Positions 9,276-24,507 of a stretch of DNA of 24,929 nt are shown piece by piece. Origin of the DNA: a virus; IMG/VR virus record IMGVR_UViG_3300042868_008268, positions 1 through 24,929 of that record. One strand, 5' to 3'. Every line of letters begins with the position of its first letter. Within the stretch, counting starts at the first letter, position 1. Both the position numbers and the translations under genes were made by a program. A model generated the notes under the pieces. That model was not told the DNA's origin and searched no databases. It was given only the letters and a program-made list of their open reading frames with translations.

Positions 9276-9730
9276 TATGAAGCTCTCCCGAAGTTAGCGA
9301 TCCGCACCAGTACCAGCGTGTCGGCCGCAGTAACGTTGACCACTTCCTGCGCGTAGGCCACGATCTCCTCGGTGCCGTCAGTCAGTGCAATGCGCAGCTG
9401 GCCGGCTGCGTTCACAGCGAGCGCAGTATCCAGTGCGGTAATGTTTTGTGTGGCTGCCACACGGGCGTTATACAGATCGCCGGCGCGTGGGTAAAAGCCT
9501 TTGACTGTGTCGCCGCTGGTCCATGTGTCCGCAACGCCGCCTTGCTTCATGGTGTTCAGGTCGGCGATATACAGCGCGCCGCCCTCGCCGTTCGTAGTAA
9601 CCGCCACGAACTGGCCGGAAGTGCGCAGCATGAAGCGACCCGGCAGCACCGCAGCGCTACAAGTTGCTTCTTCTACCAGCGGGCGATCGACGTTAGAGAT
9701 GCCCCCGGCGAAAATGGTATTTTTAGCCAT
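9275..9730 (-). CDS. Head decoration/stabilisation protein candidate
   Basis: A 151-residue beta-rich protein between the protease/scaffold and the capsid gene, the classic place of decoration (cement) proteins such as lambda gpD. It has a strong ribosome site (AAGGAG). The middle contains an extended T/V/A/D-rich stretch (VAATQNITALDTALAVNAAG) and the C-terminus reads VVNVTAADTLVLVRIANFGR, typical of a small beta-barrel. An alternative is a structural protein of the same barrel family used at vertices. No catalytic motif is seen. Confidence 0.7.
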   Translation of the reverse strand: MAKNTIFAGGISNVDRPLVEEATCSAAVLPGRFMLRTSGQFVAVTTNGEGGALYIADLNTMKQGGVADTWTSGDTVKGFYPRAGDLYNARVAATQNITALDTALAVNAAGQLRIALTDGTEEIVAYAQEVVNVTAADTLVLVRIANFGRAS

Positions 9731-9742
9731 GTTGTCGGCTCC

Positions 9743-14912: not shown

Positions 14913-16454
14913 TCATAGCACCCCCGCCCGTGGTTTGGTAGCGGTGATAAATGCGCGGTCGATGGCGTCGATCATGGTGTCGGTCTGGTCGTCGTGCTTG
15001 TGCGTATCGTCCGCGTTGAAGCTACACACCTCGGCGATAAACTCGGGGTTGCTTGGGTCTCCTGCGCGCAATTTGACCCTGCCGCCACGGTGGTGTGGCT
15101 GCGCGTCCAGCGCCCGTGTGAGCTTGTCGCGGCTGCGTTGCACGGCGGTTATCTTGACCGGCAGTTGCTGGGAGGCTTCTTGTATCAACCCGGTGCCGCT
15201 GCTCTTGTCCTCGACGTCCACGGCGCGCAGGTTGCCGTGTATTGGCCCGTTGAGGTCGTAGCATTCACGGACAAATTGCACAAAGCGGGTGCGCAGCTCG
15301 TGCGCTTCCCATTTGCCCCTGATGCCGTTGATGCGGTGCAGATTGCCCTGGTACATGCCCCAATGGTTGATCACGCTAAAGTCGTGGCGCTCGCCGGTTT
15401 TCTGCGCGGTGTCGACGGTGATAAACCGGTACTCCCAATGCGGCACGTCGTCCGGCTCGTATAGCCCGAAGTCGTCGGGGCGGAATATGCCGCCGCTCAG
15501 CAGTTCAGGCTGCTGCATGTATTGGCTGGTGAACGTGTATGGGTCTGACTCCCACAGCTGCACCAGGTCTTTCACGTCCTCGTTAGCCGGCCAGAAGCTC
15601 CAGTATTCTACGCCGCCAACTGTCACGGATTCACTGCCGAGACAATCCGCCAGCGCATAGGGGCGTATATCCTCGGGTAGCGCCATAAGGTAATCAAGCG
15701 TTACAAGCGCCGGAATGCTGACGTGCTCGAATGTAAGGCCCATGCCACCCGATACCATAAACGCGCTGCTATCGTCGACGTGGAGCCGCTGCTGGATGGC
15801 TAGAATTGGCGTGGGGTGCTTGCGGGACTTATCGCCACGGCGCGAGCGCACGGTATTGACGAGCAGCTGATGCGTTCGCTTGCGGCGCACTTCGCTGAAT
15901 ACGTCGTCCGGCTTGTCCACGTCGTCCAGTAGCACCCAGCCCGAGAAGTTCGGGCCGATATAGCCGCCACGGCCGCCGGTGATCTGCCCGCCCGCCGAGC
16001 GGCTGACGACCTCTGCGACCGTCTTGCCCTGGCGTGTAACGAGTTGCCACTCGTCGGCCTGATTGGTGCCGAACGTCCGCGGCCACAGTTCCTGAAATTC
16101 TTCTGAGGCGATCAGGTCGCGTGTTCTGCGGCTGTTGCGCTTGGTAAGCGAGTCGCTGAACGATATATTCAGGTTGCGGAACTTCGGTACCTTAACGACC
16201 ATCCACGCCGGCGCGTGAATACTCAGCGTCTCGGTTTTACCTGCGCCCGGCGGTACGTTGATCACCACGTTGTGCGGTCGCTCGGTGATAATCTCCTGTG
16301 CCTTGCGCGCCAGCAGCCTGTGGTGCCAGTTTACTTGCCACTTCTCGCCCTGCGTGATCTGGAACCATATGCGCAAGAACGTCAGATAATCCGCCTCGCT
16401 CAGCAGGCGCAATGCCTGGCGCTTAGCGGGGCTGCAATCTTCCCACTCGATCAT
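14913..16454 (-). CDS. terL: Terminase large subunit
   Basis: A 513-residue two-domain motor. Walker A is VPPGAGKTE (residues 67-75) and Walker B is GWVLLDDVDKP (172-182), giving the ATPase. The nuclease part holds FITVDTAQKTGERHDFS (about 344-360, Asp348), VDVEDKSSGTGLIQE (412-426, Asp/Glu acid) and HDDQTDTMIDAI (487-498, acid near the end), consistent with an RNase H-like nuclease. It would cut concatemers and pump DNA into the prohead through the portal. The start overlaps the terS stop as ATGA. Length and motif order are typical of complete TerL proteins. Confidence 0.95.
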   Translation of the reverse strand: MIEWEDCSPAKRQALRLLSEADYLTFLRIWFQITQGEKWQVNWHHRLLARKAQEIITERPHNVVINVPPGAGKTETLSIHAPAWMVVKVPKFRNLNISFSDSLTKRNSRRTRDLIASEEFQELWPRTFGTNQADEWQLVTRQGKTVAEVVSRSAGGQITGGRGGYIGPNFSGWVLLDDVDKPDDVFSEVRRKRTHQLLVNTVRSRRGDKSRKHPTPILAIQQRLHVDDSSAFMVSGGMGLTFEHVSIPALVTLDYLMALPEDIRPYALADCLGSESVTVGGVEYWSFWPANEDVKDLVQLWESDPYTFTSQYMQQPELLSGGIFRPDDFGLYEPDDVPHWEYRFITVDTAQKTGERHDFSVINHWGMYQGNLHRINGIRGKWEAHELRTRFVQFVRECYDLNGPIHGNLRAVDVEDKSSGTGLIQEASQQLPVKITAVQRSRDKLTRALDAQPHHRGGRVKLRAGDPSNPEFIAEVCSFNADDTHKHDDQTDTMIDAIDRAFITATKPRAGVL

Positions 16455-16858
16455 AACTCAGCCAACACGCTGCGAAGCGCATCGGCCACGTCTGCGGCGG
16501 ATATAGGCGCAACGGGCGACATGCTGCCGTCGCTGCTCAGGTTGTCCACTTCGCGCCGCTCGATGTCGCCGTGCTTGGATAACATAATGCGCGTCACGAC
16601 CGGGTGAAACCTTCCGCCCAGCCCGCCCGACGTGAGCAGCTTGTGCTGCTTGGTCATCAGCGCGTCCATAACGGGAATCAATTCTGCGTAATCGGGGTGC
16701 TGCTGGTAGTTGTAGAGAATCTTCTTGCTGCAGTCCATATAGACCGCTAAGCCCGCCACGGTGGGCACAAGGTCGCCTTCCTGCTCGTAGTTCGCTAAGT
16801 ACCAGCGCGCCCGCTCGAGCGCTTCTTCTGGGGTGAATTTAAATGGTCTACCTGCCAC
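16451..16858 (-). CDS. terS: Terminase small subunit (gp3-like DNA-packaging protein)
   Basis: A 135-residue protein directly upstream of terL. An N-terminal helical DNA-binding part (TPEEALERARWYLANYE, then AGLAVYMDCSKKILYNYQQH, HTH-like at about residues 34-53) is followed by TSGGLGGRFHPVVTRIMLSK near residues 76-95, a segment typical of the gp3/PF16677 DNA-packaging proteins. The start is a GTG with GAGGG upstream. TerS normally recognises the packaging site and loads TerL. The symmetric array at 16940-17227, starting about 80 bases upstream, is a natural candidate target. Confidence 0.85.
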   Translation of the reverse strand: MAGRPFKFTPEEALERARWYLANYEQEGDLVPTVAGLAVYMDCSKKILYNYQQHPDYAELIPVMDALMTKQHKLLTSGGLGGRFHPVVTRIMLSKHGDIERREVDNLSSDGSMSPVAPISAADVADALRSVLAEL

Positions 16859-16888
16859 AGTTGGCGCCCTCTTATTGACCGTGTTGTC

Positions 16889-16919
16889 AGTATAGCACTA
16901 GCCGCCACACATTGCGCAA
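16889..16919 (-). promoter_or_regulatory. Candidate promoter for terS and packaging genes
   Basis: On the minus strand TATACT (16894-16889) is preceded by TGC, giving an extended -10, and TTGCGC (16919-16914) lies 19 bases upstream. The downstream bases GAC repeat the TATACTGAC context of the protease promoter candidate at 10874-10978. It is about 30 bases from the terS start and adjacent to the symmetric array, so it may be controlled by proteins bound there. Confidence 0.45.
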
Positions 16920-16938
16920 GCCGTGCAAGGATCGTGCC

Positions 16939-17027
16939 TATGACCCAATGACCGAACTATGACCAATATTGGGTCATGCGCAAGTTATTGATCTATATCT
17001 CTATTTACTACTTATGACCCAATGACC
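16939..17027. repeat. Left arm of symmetric array
   Basis: TATGACCCAATGACC occurs twice, at 16939-16953 and 17013-17027, start to start 74 bp. Between them, ATGACC and GGGTCAT bracket AATATT at 16959-16977, a near-perfect palindrome with one unpaired G. Five hexamers point one way and one the other. The intervening 36 bases (16978-17013) are AT-rich and less conserved than the sites when compared with the right arm. Confidence 0.9.
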
Positions 17028-17134
17028 TAAGAATTATATTGTAAACATACAGACGGATCATAAATATATAGTGTATCGCACACACATAATAATATATAAG
17101 AGGGTCTGGTCTGTTTGGGTCTTTTTCGTGATAG
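17028..17134. other. AT-rich core between array arms
   Basis: The first 70 or so bases are strongly A/T (runs such as AAATATATAG and AATAATATATAAG), followed by GGTCT-like repeats at 17103-17121 and a T-run. This is the least GC-rich stretch of the window. It could be an unwinding region or the place where packaging cuts. I found no convincing DnaA box or promoter pair and no coding frame. Confidence 0.6.
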
Positions 17135-17227
17135 GGTTCGGTCATTCGGTCATAACCCTAAAAAGTGTAGATGAATCAAGAGGTTACGTATGACCCATAT
17201 TGGGTCATGGTTCGGTCATTCGGTCAT
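17135..17227. repeat. Right arm of symmetric array
   Basis: GGTTCGGTCATTCGGTCAT occurs twice and identically, at 17135-17153 and 17209-17227, again 74 bp start to start. Between them lies a 19-bp palindrome, ATGACCCATATTGGGTCAT (17190-17208), with perfect 8-bp arms. The tandem pairs are the reverse complement of those in the left arm with one base changed. The 36-base spacer differs from the left spacer at about half of its positions, so the sites are conserved more than the DNA between them. Confidence 0.9.
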
Positions 17228-17230
17228 GGG

Positions 17231-17355
17231 GTAACGTGGCAGCAACAGCGGGTAACAATTAGATAACAAGCGCACCAAGCGGGGAACATATCAGCAACGC
17301 GCAGTAACAAGTGCCGGTTGTTGCTGATATGTTACTGCGTGTTACCCGATGTTAC
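17231..17355. repeat. GTAAC/GTTAC cluster with 14-bp inverted repeat
   Basis: A second repeat family adjoins the array. GTAAC occurs at 17231, 17252 and 17304, plus GATAAC near 17262. The reverse form GTTAC occurs at 17331, 17341 and 17351, exactly ten bases apart. Perfect 14-bp arms, AACATATCAGCAAC (17285-17298) and GTTGCTGATATGTT (17320-17333), flank a 21-base loop. There is no T-run, so a simple terminator is unlikely. The cluster runs into the end of the cytosine methyltransferase gene, whose TAA stop lies inside one repeat. Confidence 0.75.
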
Positions 17356-18622
17356 ACCCGATCCAGCGCATACAAGGAACCGCCATTGAGTTGCCGAGCG
17401 CTTTGTATCTTGGACCATCAGCGGGGCGACCTGGCAGCATTGTGTGGCCGTCGGGAAAGCCCTGCAGCCTCTCGCACTCGGTCGGAGTCAGTCGGCGCAC
17501 TTGCATATTAACGAGCGCAGCGCTGTACTGACTGCACGTCAGCGTCTCGGCTTTTTCTTCCGTGATACGCATCTGATCAACTTGCGCGTTTGAGTTGAAC
17601 CCATACATAGCCGGCACCACATAGCCCTCTCGGAGCTGTCCTGACATTTGGTTGTGGCTTGCTTCTGTGCTTCCGCCACTCACCATTGTGGGCATGAAGT
17701 CAACGTGGGCAACTGCATGCTGGCTACCTTGATCCAGCGTGTACATCGGTGCGTCCTGCGCAACACCCAGACCGTTCTGATCCTTTCCGCGAGTGGCGTT
17801 CTGGATGGCAAACACAGAAGGAACCAACCGCCCAGTATAGGCATCCTGTCCACTGTACGCGCCCGGGTGCGTGTCGGCGCACAATGTCCCAACTACTCGC
17901 TGCAATCCGTTTTTGTCGAATTCTGGACTACCGATCGCAGCGCCTGCTCCAGAAGTGGCGGCAACTTCTTCCCGCGCTTCTCTGCTCGGCGCAATATCCC
18001 GGCGCATGCCTTCGAACTCAAAAAGAACCGCGGCGGGATCGAAGTCTGCTCGAGCACTTGCGACAACGAACACACGGCGGCGGCGTTGGGCCACTCCGAA
18101 ATATTGGGCATCAAGGACGCGCCACGCGACTGCGCGCGATGGTCCAATAACAAGACCAGCGTTTGGCCACCGTCCGGCCGGGTTAACGATTGGCTCGTGG
18201 TGCCCGGACAGGCCAGCAATAAAGCAGCCGAAAGCATTGTCCTTGGAGGATAAGACGCCGGGGACGTTTTCCCAGACGATAATGGCGGGTTGTTCTCGTT
18301 GTTCGTCGATTGCATTGGCTAGTCTCACAAATTCAAGGGTTAATTGTCCGCGCTCGTCGCTCAGGCCGCCACGCAACCCGGCAACACTGAACGCCTGGCA
18401 CGGGGTGCCTCCCACCAGTACGTCGGGCGCCTCTACGACCCCGGCGTGGACCATGTGGCGGATCATCGTCATATCGCCGAGGTTTGGCACGTGCGGCCAA
18501 TGATGTGCCAGCACGGCAGATGGGAACGGCTCGATCTCTGCGAACCAGGCGGGCTGCCAGCCCAGTGGCTCCCACGCGACGCTTGCAGCCTCAATGCCGC
18601 TGCATACACTGCCGTATCTCAT
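17342..18622 (-). CDS. DNA (cytosine-5) methyltransferase
   Basis: A 426-residue protein with all main C5-methyltransferase motifs: motif I SVCSGIEAASVAW (residues 5-17, AdoMet binding), motif IV GGTPCQAFSVAG with the catalytic Cys75, motif VI ENV (118-120), motif VIII QRRRRVF (179-185), and the C-terminal RRLTPTECERLQGFPDG (376-392) and YKALGNSMAVP (motif X). The variable region between VIII and IX sets the target. No restriction endonuclease is next to it, so it is an orphan that could protect phage DNA from host restriction. The start overlaps the upstream gene as ATGA. Confidence 0.93.
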   Translation of the reverse strand: MRYGSVCSGIEAASVAWEPLGWQPAWFAEIEPFPSAVLAHHWPHVPNLGDMTMIRHMVHAGVVEAPDVLVGGTPCQAFSVAGLRGGLSDERGQLTLEFVRLANAIDEQREQPAIIVWENVPGVLSSKDNAFGCFIAGLSGHHEPIVNPAGRWPNAGLVIGPSRAVAWRVLDAQYFGVAQRRRRVFVVASARADFDPAAVLFEFEGMRRDIAPSREAREEVAATSGAGAAIGSPEFDKNGLQRVVGTLCADTHPGAYSGQDAYTGRLVPSVFAIQNATRGKDQNGLGVAQDAPMYTLDQGSQHAVAHVDFMPTMVSGGSTEASHNQMSGQLREGYVVPAMYGFNSNAQVDQMRITEEKAETLTCSQYSAALVNMQVRRLTPTECERLQGFPDGHTMLPGRPADGPRYKALGNSMAVPCMRWIGCNIG

Positions 18623-18813: not shown

Positions 18814-19082
18814 ACGCTGCCCTCCACGAGTGCTAAGAGCGCGTCGATCTCCCGGCGTTGCTCCTCAATGCGACAAGACTTGTGGCCGCAGTTGCAAACA
18901 AATTGTCCCGCGAGGTCTTGCAGTAAGTCGCGCATATCCGGCGCGTACTGAATTAAGCGCGCGTTGGCTTCACGCTGCGAGCTGTTCCAAAGCGCTGCGA
19001 CTTGTTCGCCGTGCTGGCCGCTTACTAAATGGCGCCCGCTATTGCTGACGGTACGCCGCCACGGTGCTGGTGTTGCTTTCAT
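18804..19082 (-). CDS. Small phage protein with Cys cluster, unknown
   Basis: A 92-residue protein. The middle (QREANARLIQYAPDMRDLLQ, about residues 36-55) resembles common phage proteins with the pattern 'ANARLIxxAPxMxxLL'. Residues 63-70 read CNCGHKSC, which may bind a metal, and a Glu-rich helix follows. Its 3' end overlaps the next gene by ten bases. Function unknown. Confidence 0.65.
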   Translation of the reverse strand: MKATPAPWRRTVSNSGRHLVSGQHGEQVAALWNSSQREANARLIQYAPDMRDLLQDLAGQFVCNCGHKSCRIEEQRREIDALLALVEGSVCN

Positions 19083-19777
19083 GATAGTGATCCTTTTATT
19101 TTGCTGATTGTCGTTGTTGATACGCCCGTGCGCCGGCTGATCTCGGCGCCCTGTACTTCATCGCGTAGCCACTGCACGATCTGGGCGCGCACTCCAGGGT
19201 CGATACGTGTATAACTACCCCGTGGCGGCCGGTTCGCTACCGCGGCGGTTGCTTTGGCCACTTTGAACGCCTCGCGCCTGCTGACCTTGCTGCATGACGT
19301 GCATCGCGTGACCTTGCCGCTGCGTAATTTGTCGATCCGAACTGTGCGGATACCACCGCACGAGCAGCTGCAGTATACTGCGCGACCATCTCGCCCCGCG
19401 ACGGTCAGCTCGCCATATTGCTGACCTGGTACCGCTAAGAGACGGCGGCCACGCTTGCCGGGTTCACGCGGTACCCTGCGCGGCGCGGGTGACGATGTGA
19501 GGCCATGCGCTTGCGCGATATTGTAGACCGTTGCGCGACTGCAGCCACAATGCTCGGCGATGGCGTCTCTGGCCATACTGCGCGCCATGAGCAGGCGCAG
19601 CACCGTGGAGGTCTCTGGGTGTCGCTTTGCACCGCGTCGACCTCCGCGCCCCTTCTCGCGCCGGACACGATACACGGTATCGATTGAGCAAAAGCACTGC
19701 GCGGCGACCTCTGCGGGCGATAGGCCACGCGCGTCAGCTGCCGCTATGCGGTCGCGTTGTTCGCGTGAGTAGGTCAT
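19079..19777 (-). CDS. Multi-HTH zinc-ribbon DNA-binding protein
   Basis: A 232-residue basic protein. Three HTH-like segments are visible: residues about 18-40 (LSPAEVAAQCFCSIDTVYRV), about 70-88 (RDAIAEHCGCSRATVYNIAQ) and about 208-228 (EISRRTGVSTTTISKIKG). Between the second and third lies a zinc-ribbon-like unit (GQQYGELTV at 118, CSCSCGG at 136-142, LRSGKVTRCTSC at 151-162), similar to the 'CxCDCG...LxxGxxxSCGC' element of AP2/HNH-type phage proteins, but without a nuclease motif. It could be a site-specific regulator, initiator or packaging factor. ATGA overlap couples it to the HD gene. Confidence 0.8.
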   Translation of the reverse strand: MTYSREQRDRIAAADARGLSPAEVAAQCFCSIDTVYRVRREKGRGGRRGAKRHPETSTVLRLLMARSMARDAIAEHCGCSRATVYNIAQAHGLTSSPAPRRVPREPGKRGRRLLAVPGQQYGELTVAGRDGRAVYCSCSCGGIRTVRIDKLRSGKVTRCTSCSKVSRREAFKVAKATAAVANRPPRGSYTRIDPGVRAQIVQWLRDEVQGAEISRRTGVSTTTISKIKGSLS

Positions 19778-21943: not shown

Positions 21944-21967
21944 AAAAAAAAAGCCCCCGAAGGGGCT
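21944..21967 (-). terminator. Rho-independent terminator with UUCG loop
   Basis: On the minus strand AGCCCC (21967-21962) is followed by the UUCG-type tetraloop, GGGGCT, and a nine-base T-run. The stop codon of the primase-polymerase (TAG, 21968-21966) is built into the stem. This ends the early transcript and separates it from the small-gene operon. Confidence 0.92.
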
Positions 21968-24212
21968 AGGCGCTGGCGGCGTTGAGCTGGGGGGCTATTT
22001 GCTGGGCGTTGATATACTGTTGGCACACGGCGCGCGGGTCGGTGAGCTGTGCGGCGAGGTGGTCTTTTTTCACGTAGAGGCGCGGGCGCGCTCCGTCAAT
22101 CTCGATAGTGGCGCGACCTTGCGGCAGCGCCGGGTGCAGGATGTAGCCGTTTTGTTCCATAAGCTCGCGGCGGCGGCTTTGTGGGATATGCTTGCGCATA
22201 TGGTCCAGCAGCTGACTGAGCGCCTGGCTCGATACGAACCCTCCACGGAATCCGTGCCGCCCTTCCTCGACGGCCTCCACGATCTCTTGTTCCACGCTGC
22301 CACGGCTGGCGCTGACTGCCTCTGCGTGGCTGCTGGTCTGCGGCGCACGTTGCGCACCGGTGGCCGGGTTGAGTTCGTAGGGGATCGGATAGGTCGCCAG
22401 GTAGTCCGTGACGATCGCATATCCGCCAGACTTCGCCCAGTCGTAGAGCGCTTTCATGTAGGCCGGGTCCATGCCGTCACGCTGCAGATCGGCGACATGC
22501 TGCTGTGCCGTATAGAACACGGCGAAGCGGCGGTCGTTCTCGGTCTTGCGCAGTGCGTCCTTATGGTTACTATTAAGCATAAAGTTTGCGCAGATGTCCC
22601 GGGTGACTTGCTTGGTGCCTTTACCCTGAATGCCGAGACCGTCGCCGCCGGTGATCATCGGCTTTAATATCTCGAGCACTTCCATTTTCTCTGCTGGGAC
22701 ATATATGTCCTCCACGCCGACGAATATAACGCCTTCCAGCCAGTCGTTAAATTTATTCGCGATGTCCTGGGCTTGCGGCATCATCGTATAGCGCCGGCCG
22801 ATCGCCATACGCACGCAGCGGGTAAAGAAGGTCTTGCCGTTACCCTCGACGCCTTGGATCAGCGGGCACCATTGGAACTTGACGCCCTTGTGTTGCACGA
22901 CGGCGGCCATATAGGCCAGTAGTATGTCGCGGTCGCGTTGGTTGGGTAGCAGCAGCGACAAGTGGCGCAGGAATGGCGCAGCGTCACCTTTAGCGCGCGG
23001 AACGTCGATCGGCTTGTACGTGTTGACCAGTCGCAGCCCGTCCTCCTGCACAATCTGCTGGAATGCAAGGTCGGGCCGGAATACGTCGCGATCTGCCATC
23101 GGGTAGCGCACGACCTGCGACTCCGTGAACGCCTGCCACGCATTGGTCGCCATTGTGCGGTTCGCTGCGTCCATGACGAACTGATAGCCGCCGTAACGCA
23201 CGCGGAACTGCTCGGGCTTCTCCATCTCCCCGTTCGGCGTGAGCACAGCGTGGCGGCTGGCGATATAGACGCACCCGGCGAAATAGTTTACCTGCTGACT
23301 CGGCACCATCATCTGCAGCCCTTCGCGGATCTCCGGTGCCGCCACTGGTGGCGGGGGCTGGTCGATCGTAACGCCCGCTCCCAGCACGCGCTGGCAACGC
23401 GCCACTGCGCCCAGTATGGTGCGCTCGCGGTAGTCGTCGCGCTCCCATTTGTCACGCATAAGGCCAGATTGGCGGAATAGCCGATCCATACGCTCGCAAT
23501 CTTTTCCGGTCCAAAAAGCTAAGTGCTGGCATAGCTTGGCGTCATCCCGTGAGGCGTCGCCGGTACCTTGGCCCGCCCATAGCGCGTGCAGTGACGCATC
23601 GCCCCCGAACGCATTGGCCGCGCTGTTGCTGCCGAGCATCCGGTCGATCAGCTCTTGATCGTCGGTTGGGCCGCTCCATTCTGCTACGGGTTCGTTAGTC
23701 CACTCGGCTGCATCTGCTGCGGCGTCCGGCGTAAAGTGCTGGGCGATCAAACCAAGCAGTGCGGCGCTGTGATCGGTGTCTGGGTTGCCGGTGCTGTCTT
23801 GCCAAGTGAGCGCGACAAAGCGGCGCGCGCTGTATAGCTCCAGCACCACAGAGGCCGAGACGGGACGAGTACGGTGTGGCGGCAGCGGGCAGCTATAGCG
23901 GCCAATGATATGCCAGCCGGTGCCGCTTGTGCTGCGCTCGACAAATGCACCAGGGAACCGCGCGAGCAGGTCGGCCAGCAAGTCCTCGTTGTCCAAGTCG
24001 ATAAAGAAATACGGATCTTGCTCTGTGAACACGAAGCCAATGCCGAAGCCCAGCGCGCCGGCCAGCGAGTGCGCGGTGGCATAGTCCAGCCAGTTTGCCG
24101 GGTCTTGCCCGTCGACCGGCTCGCCCAGCGCGTTACAAGTGATCTTCTTGAGCTTGCCGGGCTTGGTGTCCGGTGTGGTGAAATATAGGACGAATTGCTT
24201 GTTATTATACAT
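21966..24212 (-). CDS. Primase-polymerase/helicase (NrS-1-like)
   Basis: A 748-residue protein. Residues about 1-150 form a primase-polymerase domain with the acidic pair FIDLDN (Asp72, Asp74), STSGTGWHI (94-102) and VLELYSARRF near 123-132. The central region (about 245-275) has the primase-associated segment DKWERDDYRERTI. Residues about 440-570 are an SF3-type helicase: Walker A GVEGNGKTF (454-462), Walker B VIFVGVED (495-502) and a sensor NFMLNSNHKDA...ENDRRF (543-563). The layout resembles the phage NrS-1 PrimPol-helicase, able to prime and extend DNA. It is probably the main replication protein of this phage. Confidence 0.88.
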   Translation of the reverse strand: MYNNKQFVLYFTTPDTKPGKLKKITCNALGEPVDGQDPANWLDYATAHSLAGALGFGIGFVFTEQDPYFFIDLDNEDLLADLLARFPGAFVERSTSGTGWHIIGRYSCPLPPHRTRPVSASVVLELYSARRFVALTWQDSTGNPDTDHSAALLGLIAQHFTPDAAADAAEWTNEPVAEWSGPTDDQELIDRMLGSNSAANAFGGDASLHALWAGQGTGDASRDDAKLCQHLAFWTGKDCERMDRLFRQSGLMRDKWERDDYRERTILGAVARCQRVLGAGVTIDQPPPPVAAPEIREGLQMMVPSQQVNYFAGCVYIASRHAVLTPNGEMEKPEQFRVRYGGYQFVMDAANRTMATNAWQAFTESQVVRYPMADRDVFRPDLAFQQIVQEDGLRLVNTYKPIDVPRAKGDAAPFLRHLSLLLPNQRDRDILLAYMAAVVQHKGVKFQWCPLIQGVEGNGKTFFTRCVRMAIGRRYTMMPQAQDIANKFNDWLEGVIFVGVEDIYVPAEKMEVLEILKPMITGGDGLGIQGKGTKQVTRDICANFMLNSNHKDALRKTENDRRFAVFYTAQQHVADLQRDGMDPAYMKALYDWAKSGGYAIVTDYLATYPIPYELNPATGAQRAPQTSSHAEAVSASRGSVEQEIVEAVEEGRHGFRGGFVSSQALSQLLDHMRKHIPQSRRRELMEQNGYILHPALPQGRATIEIDGARPRLYVKKDHLAAQLTDPRAVCQQYINAQQIAPQLNAASA

Positions 24213-24507
24213 TTTGCTGCGCCATCCATTCAGTTGCGCGGGCTGCCACGTGTGGCGGCACCTCGGCGCGCATTGTTAGCCCTTGGGCGACCACGGGCAG
24301 CACGCCCCGCTTGATCGCCTCGGCCAGAATGGTGCGCCGCATCTCGTTGACCGATCCGAAGTAGTGGGACACGAGCGCCACCGAGCAGGGCACCAGCGCT
24401 GCAATATCGCGCCGGCGCACTGTCTGATAGCCCTTATCGGTCGCCGCGACGAGCGCGGCGGCGATAAGCTGGTCCTGTCGGTCGGCTGGTATAAGCCGTT
24501 GTCTCAT
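24205..24507 (-). CDS. TetR-like HTH protein (DNA-binding domain only)
   Basis: A 100-residue protein whose N-terminal two thirds (DQLIAAALVAATDKGYQTVR, RRDIAALVPCSVALVSHYFG) matches the TetR-type helix-turn-helix with the YHYF-like tail 'SHYFGS'. TetR regulators normally have about 200 residues with a ligand domain; here only the DNA-binding part plus a short helix exists. It could bind palindromic DNA as a dimer, as do relatives, and the ATGACC palindromes are conceivable targets. Its ends overlap both neighbours (ATGA upstream, eight bases downstream). Confidence 0.8.
   Translation of the reverse strand: MRQRLIPADRQDQLIAAALVAATDKGYQTVRRRDIAALVPCSVALVSHYFGSVNEMRRTILAEAIKRGVLPVVAQGLTMRAEVPPHVAARATEWMAQQNV

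Follow-up and report, generated by a model that had tools for sequence, protein, structure and literature searches.

The array and its neighbourhood

The window, i.e., the whole stretch of 24,929 nucleotides that was analysed, carries beside terS a mirror-symmetric array of short repeats, which abuts a stem-loop, and further on the genes for a 232-aa protein, a PrimPol and a small TetR-fold protein. The features discussed below are the following:

16451-16858, minus strand: terS (GP3_package), which opens the late operon, beside the array but not its conserved partner
16873-17355, no strand: conserved 483-bp module holding the array, 96.7% identical in L009, where the genes on either side are not homologous
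16940-16956, plus strand: outer tandem iteron pair of the left arm (ATGACCCA ATGACCGA A)
16959-16977, no strand: palindromic iteron site of the left arm (ATGACCAATATTGGGTCAT)
16981-16993, minus strand: IHF-like element of the left arm (GATCAATAACTTG; one mismatch to WATCAANNNNTTR), mirror of the right-arm site
17014-17030, plus strand: inner tandem iteron pair of the left arm (ATGACCCA ATGACCTA A)
17028-17139, no strand: AT-rich centre (67% AT as against 41% in the window), presumed to be the unwinding region
17137-17153, minus strand: inner tandem iteron pair of the right arm
17174-17186, plus strand: perfect IHF consensus match of the right arm (AATCAAGAGGTTA), 16 bp before the inverted iteron
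17190-17208, no strand: palindromic iteron site of the right arm (ATGACCCATATTGGGTCAT)
17211-17227, minus strand: outer tandem iteron pair of the right arm
17228-17356, minus strand: stem-loop with GTTAC/GTAAC repeats, abutting the array (z = -4.25 for the single-stranded DNA fold)
19079-19777: protein of 232 aa that has three HTH matches and a segment with four cysteines
21966-24212, minus strand: NrS-1-like PrimPol with SF3-type helicase, presumed replicase at the array
24205-24507, minus strand: TetR-fold HTH protein of 100 aa, candidate iteron binder, its gene overlapping that of PrimPol

The hexamer ATGACC (GGTCAT) occurs in the array at twelve sites, six on the plus strand (16940, 16948, 16959, 17014, 17022 and 17190) and six on the minus strand (16972, 17140, 17148, 17203, 17214 and 17222). 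Each site has a partner on the opposite strand at equal distance from an axis at 17083.5. Twelve hexamers in exact mirror symmetry around an AT-rich centre of 112 bp had been reported in the initial annotation together with their spacing, and all of this was borne out on recount, the gaps being 2, 5, 7 and 36 bp. The tandem pairs have a period of 8 bp and the palindromes an 8+3+8 structure (ATGACCCA-TAT-TGGGTCAT), and, therefore, the repeat unit is better described as the 8-mer ATGACCNA. The clustering of ATGACC is not a matter of chance, as the 482-bp gap contains 12 copies against a mean of 0.35 (maximum 3) in dinucleotide shuffles, and the tandem-pair pattern was matched four times where 0.04 matches are expected. 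When the two arms are compared, all 36 site bases are identical as against 48 of the 108 spacer bases (44%). The exact array pattern had no match in the GTDB genome contigs, and a blastn search of the phage collection yielded no related array.

Between the inner pair and the palindrome of both arms lies an IHF-like element. The IHF consensus is WATCAANNNNTTR, and the right-arm element is its sole exact match in the whole window. A core element AATCAANGGGTTA that fits this consensus is present in many PrimPol-phage arrays, and its distance to the inverted site, 16 bp in the window, is 16-17 bp in L029, L036, L054, L058 and L065. When DNA was scanned for the pattern of the core element, most of the hits were contigs too short for the PrimPol test and some were unrelated phages; the element alone is, therefore, not diagnostic. 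In one unrelated phage group an IHF-like core element accompanied by GGGAG repeats occupies the interval from a TerS-like gene to terL (L105, around position 1483; the same placement was seen in L097, L099, L107, L108 and L109).

The PrimPol groups with the NrS-1 polymerase by both sequence and fold. It matches PF22763 (3.5e-22) and the structures PDB 6a9w (4e-20) and PDB 6k9c (1e-5), and it has the make-up of this family, i.e., an NrS-1-type Prim/Pol with HBD and a C-terminal helicase. In a Foldseek search its model matched both halves of the NrS-1 polymerase, with the SaPI5 Rep (7ola, 8e-9) lower in the list. The C-terminal segment of the model appears to have a winged-helix-like topology, judging from its secondary structure. 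The TetR-like protein is confidently assigned a TetR fold but has no ligand domain; its nearest folds are LuxR/SmcR/HapR, and the PHROG family to which it belongs is without an assigned function.

Conservation of the array in near and distant relatives

The initial annotation had put forward a comparison with related phages as a check, and in three near-relative IMG/VR contigs (L004, L005 and L008) all twelve sites and the same within-arm spacings are kept, the centre being 1 bp longer in L004. The flanking genes tell a different story. In L009, the contig of L008, the left gene differs and the right gene is a Terminase_2 (PF03592) instead of the GP3_package TerS of the window. L005 has another methyltransferase on the left side, and its TerS has diverged in the N-terminal half. 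The 483-bp block is near-identical in L009 despite these exchanged flanks, and it has, therefore, been inherited apart from its neighbours. The gene to the left of the module (17342-18622 in the window) is exchanged among the window, L004, L005 and L008, with a C5 methyltransferase, a 64-aa protein and another methyltransferase occurring at this position, a pattern that points to recombination at the module edges. The stem-loop, which consists of two interleaved inverted repeats and had not been mentioned in the initial annotation, is conserved in all four members of the clade (the window, L004, L005 and L008), whose sequences are too similar to show any covariation.

Two proteins do stay constant across the four phages of the window clade: the PrimPol (99% identity) and the TetR-like protein (99-100%). 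Furthermore, a small TetR-like gene is located directly upstream of the PrimPol gene in 61 of 64 loci, with a median gap of 46 bp. Besides TerS, two proteins had been considered as possible binders of the array. The TetR-like protein is still a candidate, and on the basis of gene linkage and fold we conjecture that it may bind the iterons; a comparison of its recognition helix with the repeat sequence revealed no visible co-variation across the phages compared. The 232-aa HTH/zinc protein did not hold up: it is 53% identical overall between phages with nearly identical arrays, and its N-terminal HTH part is strongly diverged in L005 and L008 with the C-terminus conserved, which makes it an unlikely binder.

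A protein search with the window PrimPol yielded 69 viral loci, mostly with 36-53% identity in the best segment, although many of the IMG/VR loci end before the late-operon junction. Many of these PrimPol relatives possess an array that is non-coding and AT-rich but made of a different repeat, in most cases GGGGTA/TACCCC, and the arrays follow a common plan, i.e., a tandem pair with a period of 8 or 9 bp, a distance of 41-47 bp, an inverted site or palindrome, and an AT-rich core. The distance from the pair to the inverted site is 42 bp in both arms of the window array, 42 bp in L029 and L032, 44 bp in both arms of L054, 44 bp in L057 and L058, 43 bp in L044 and JD001, 41 bp in LAPP1 and 47 bp in L056; for this comparison the arrays and motifs were chosen by eye, the arrays of individual relatives being called by inspecting k-mer clusters. 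The hosts of phages with this plan include Klebsiella (JD001) and Acinetobacter (LAPP1). In JD001 (L081) two near-identical arrays lie 13.5 kb apart (9455-9741 and 22989-23265), and LAPP1 (L083) also has two near-identical arrays (128-440 and 34878-35137). In HMSP1-Susan and Milano, PrimPol phages that are more distantly related, no array was detected, which indicates that the feature is either missing from part of the family or too diverged to be recognized. Two further observations concern the neighbourhood of the arrays: in L054 (10983-11243) a second TetR-like gene is close to the array, and in L018, L032, L034, L037 and L070 the divergent gene to the left of the array often starts with a motif of the FTGKPCKNGH type; the copy in L034 matches the endonuclease VII-like phrog_1035.

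Two less selective checks were also performed. The raw counts of k-mer clusters mostly reflected GC-rich repeats in coding sequence. In the rate-corrected test that took their place, GGGGTA was the top 6-mer for significant clustering (12 of 63 PrimPol loci, the next 6-mer reaching 7). A motif-blind search for a tandem 6-mer with an inverted copy at 40-45 bp gave 19 matches in 1.22 Mb against 2, 2 and 0 in shuffled sequences; about half of the matches are at PrimPol-phage arrays and the remainder are scattered. The neighbouring distance bin of 46-51 bp gave 18 matches, part of which are probably the same pairs read one repeat on, and on the motif-blind test alone the spacing is, therefore, not sharply 42 bp. 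The initial annotation had suggested that selection acts on protein-binding sites, and both the conservation of the sites next to diverged spacers and the recurrence of the plan with other repeats in distant phages lend support to this suggestion.

NrS-1 (L090, AB746912; 37 kb) is the one phage of the PrimPol family whose PrimPol has been tested. All eight copies of GGTTACAC in its genome fall within 17061-17259, i.e., less than 200 bp, between the primase gene and terS. The published recognition sequence of the NrS-1 PrimPol is TTTGGTTA, although sequence recognition by PrimPol is flexible (PMC8718748). Two copies of the recognition sequence have been described at the centre of the NrS-1 genome and an origin has been proposed there (PMC7102993), whereas we counted one exact copy of TTTGGTTA in the genome, which is inside the GGTTACAC array. 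The ORF NRS1_29 (L090 17055-17456) overlies this array and is probably not a gene. In the window TTTGGTTA was not found, and the core element has AGAGGTTACG instead. The GGGTTA end of the core element resembles the NrS-1 priming sequence, so that a priming site may be considered as a second reading of this element beside that of an IHF site.

A putative replication origin and its alternatives

The two iteron sets, arranged as in PICIs, the array of NrS-1 and the linkage of PrimPol with the TetR-like gene lead us to consider the array as a replication origin used by the PrimPol-helicase and built like the origins of PICIs/SaPIs, a reading to which we assign a probability of roughly 0.65. An origin for the PrimPol-helicase had been listed in the initial annotation as one of the alternatives, and, judged from sequence comparison, it now appears to be the best supported of them. 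That the array survives the exchange of genes on both sides counts in its favor; arrays at late-operon starts, which also suit transcription control, and the two arrays of JD001 and LAPP1 count against it. GC skew as an origin marker is confounded by gene orientation.

From these comparisons we infer how such an origin may work. Two mirror-image sets of 8-bp iterons flank the AT-rich centre, the presumed unwinding region. A dimeric phage DNA-binding protein would occupy the palindromes and the paired iterons; the most likely candidate is the TetR-fold protein whose gene adjoins that of PrimPol, possibly acting together with the C-terminal domain of PrimPol itself. The IHF-consensus bend site would fold each arm, the inner pair and the palindrome being separated by ca. 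42 bp, close to four helical turns. After this folding the AT-rich centre would open, and the PrimPol-helicase would load and start DNA synthesis without an RNA primer, with one fork per arm. No described origin for these phages was found in the openly readable literature searched. A more far-reaching proposal is that of an undescribed class of origins common to NrS-1-like PrimPol phages, in which a TetR-fold protein that lacks the ligand domain and has its gene immediately upstream of PrimPol acts as initiator on mirrored 8-bp iterons, IHF bends the arms and the PrimPol-helicase starts two forks free of RNA primers; this we put forward tentatively, as a possible but doubtful generalization.

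The strongest rival, in line with the switch operator named in the initial annotation, is a control region of the late operon, at which the TetR-like protein or another factor would, with IHF, turn the neighbouring late genes on or off. In nearly all cases the array immediately precedes the first late gene, and the intergenic region is often a divergent one; each of the two near-identical arrays in JD001 and LAPP1 opens a gene block; and TetR-fold proteins are usually transcription regulators, the nearest folds here being LuxR/SmcR/HapR. However, the genes on both sides of the window array are co-oriented, so that exact mirror symmetry is not called for, and a scan of 16800-17400 revealed no sigma-70-like promoter. 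Furthermore, the TetR-like gene is linked to PrimPol and not to the array or the late genes, and the NrS-1 array contains the recognition sequence of PrimPol itself. We consider this explanation unlikely, though it deserves serious attention.

The initial annotation had compared the array with P1 pac and TerS binding, i.e., a packaging site (pac/cos-like) where TerS occupies the hexamer clusters, IHF bends the DNA and packaging starts beside terS. The array does adjoin terS in the window and most relatives, and P1 pac is also defined by hexamer clusters, which flank its central region, and an IHF site, and it is near a small terminase gene (PMC10028697); in the window an IHF site between the clusters is indicated by the consensus match at 17174-17186 alone. 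However, the array is independent of TerS. The 483-bp block is ca. 97% identical beside the unrelated TerS families of L009 (Terminase_2) and the window (GP3_package), which argues against a TerS-bound pac site, since the array is not co-inherited with the adjacent TerS. Moreover, in SppYZU01, L063 and L020 a minor tail gene instead of terS follows the array, JD001 has its two distant copies, and no array is present upstream of terS in V039C, PSTNGR2lys, APSE-1 and phiEt88, phages with related TerS/TerL. The repeat itself differs as well, since P1-type pac hexamers are TGATCA/G with Dam sites whereas GATC is absent from the ATGACC repeat, and P1 pac does not show the exact symmetry. A packaging site seems, therefore, very improbable. 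Still less probable is a site for partition, recombination (e.g., resolution or segregation) or another nucleoprotein complex unrelated to the start of replication, since, even though mirror symmetry and an adjacent stem-loop fit many such complexes, an unsystematic look at the window ORFs brought up no recombinase or partition gene, and the observed association links the array to PrimPol and the TetR-like gene.

Comparison with known replication origins

The putative origin of the window resembles the NrS-1 replicon in that both have a PrimPol of the same family (PF22763, PDB 6a9w/6k9c) and the NrS-1 array is also found between the primase gene and terS. However, the NrS-1 repeat is GGTTACAC without an exact mirror, the array is adjacent to the primase gene in NrS-1 as against ca. 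5 kb away in the window, and the gene upstream of PrimPol is CII-like in NrS-1 and TetR-like in the window. The alpha protein of phage P4 has a primase domain of the bacterial type, and the P4 repeats differ from the window array in sequence and layout. The likeness to P4 ori/crr lies in repeats at a putative origin combined with a primase-helicase whose C-terminus, according to our model, may be winged-helix-like; in P4 the origin repeats are bound by alpha, a primase-helicase with a C-terminal winged helix (PMC4234260). In the pRN1/BPP-1-type systems with stem-loop origins a small repressor gene precedes the PrimPol-helicase, as the TetR-like gene does in the window, and the stem-loop at 17228-17356 recalls the essential stem-loop of ca. 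100 nt of plasmid pRN1, the origin of which is described as being without iterons (PMC4234260), whereas in the window the stem-loop comes in addition to an iteron array.

The identification of a concrete origin candidate is of relevance for a broad group of PrimPol phages, including Jedunavirus-type Klebsiella phages and NrS-1, the polymerase of which is well studied whereas its origin is not, and the conserved small TetR-fold protein is the first candidate binder to examine. The origins of PICIs consist of two iteron sets flanking an AT-rich region, an arrangement called unique to PICIs by the authors (PMC6092414). The window array likewise has two iteron sets flanking an AT-rich region, and its PrimPol-helicase may be the counterpart of the cognate Pri/Rep helicase encoded on the element, as the protein model suggests. 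It differs in that the PICI/SaPI origin is immediately 3' of rep and not ca. 5 kb from the PrimPol gene, and in belonging to an autonomous phage, with exact mirror symmetry of palindromes and tandem pairs, IHF-like sites and a TetR-fold partner gene. If the array is indeed an origin, the PICI-type plan of two iteron sets and an AT-rich core would extend to autonomous phages, and our best reading is that a plan already known from PICI origins occurs here in PrimPol phages as a variant with mirrored iterons.
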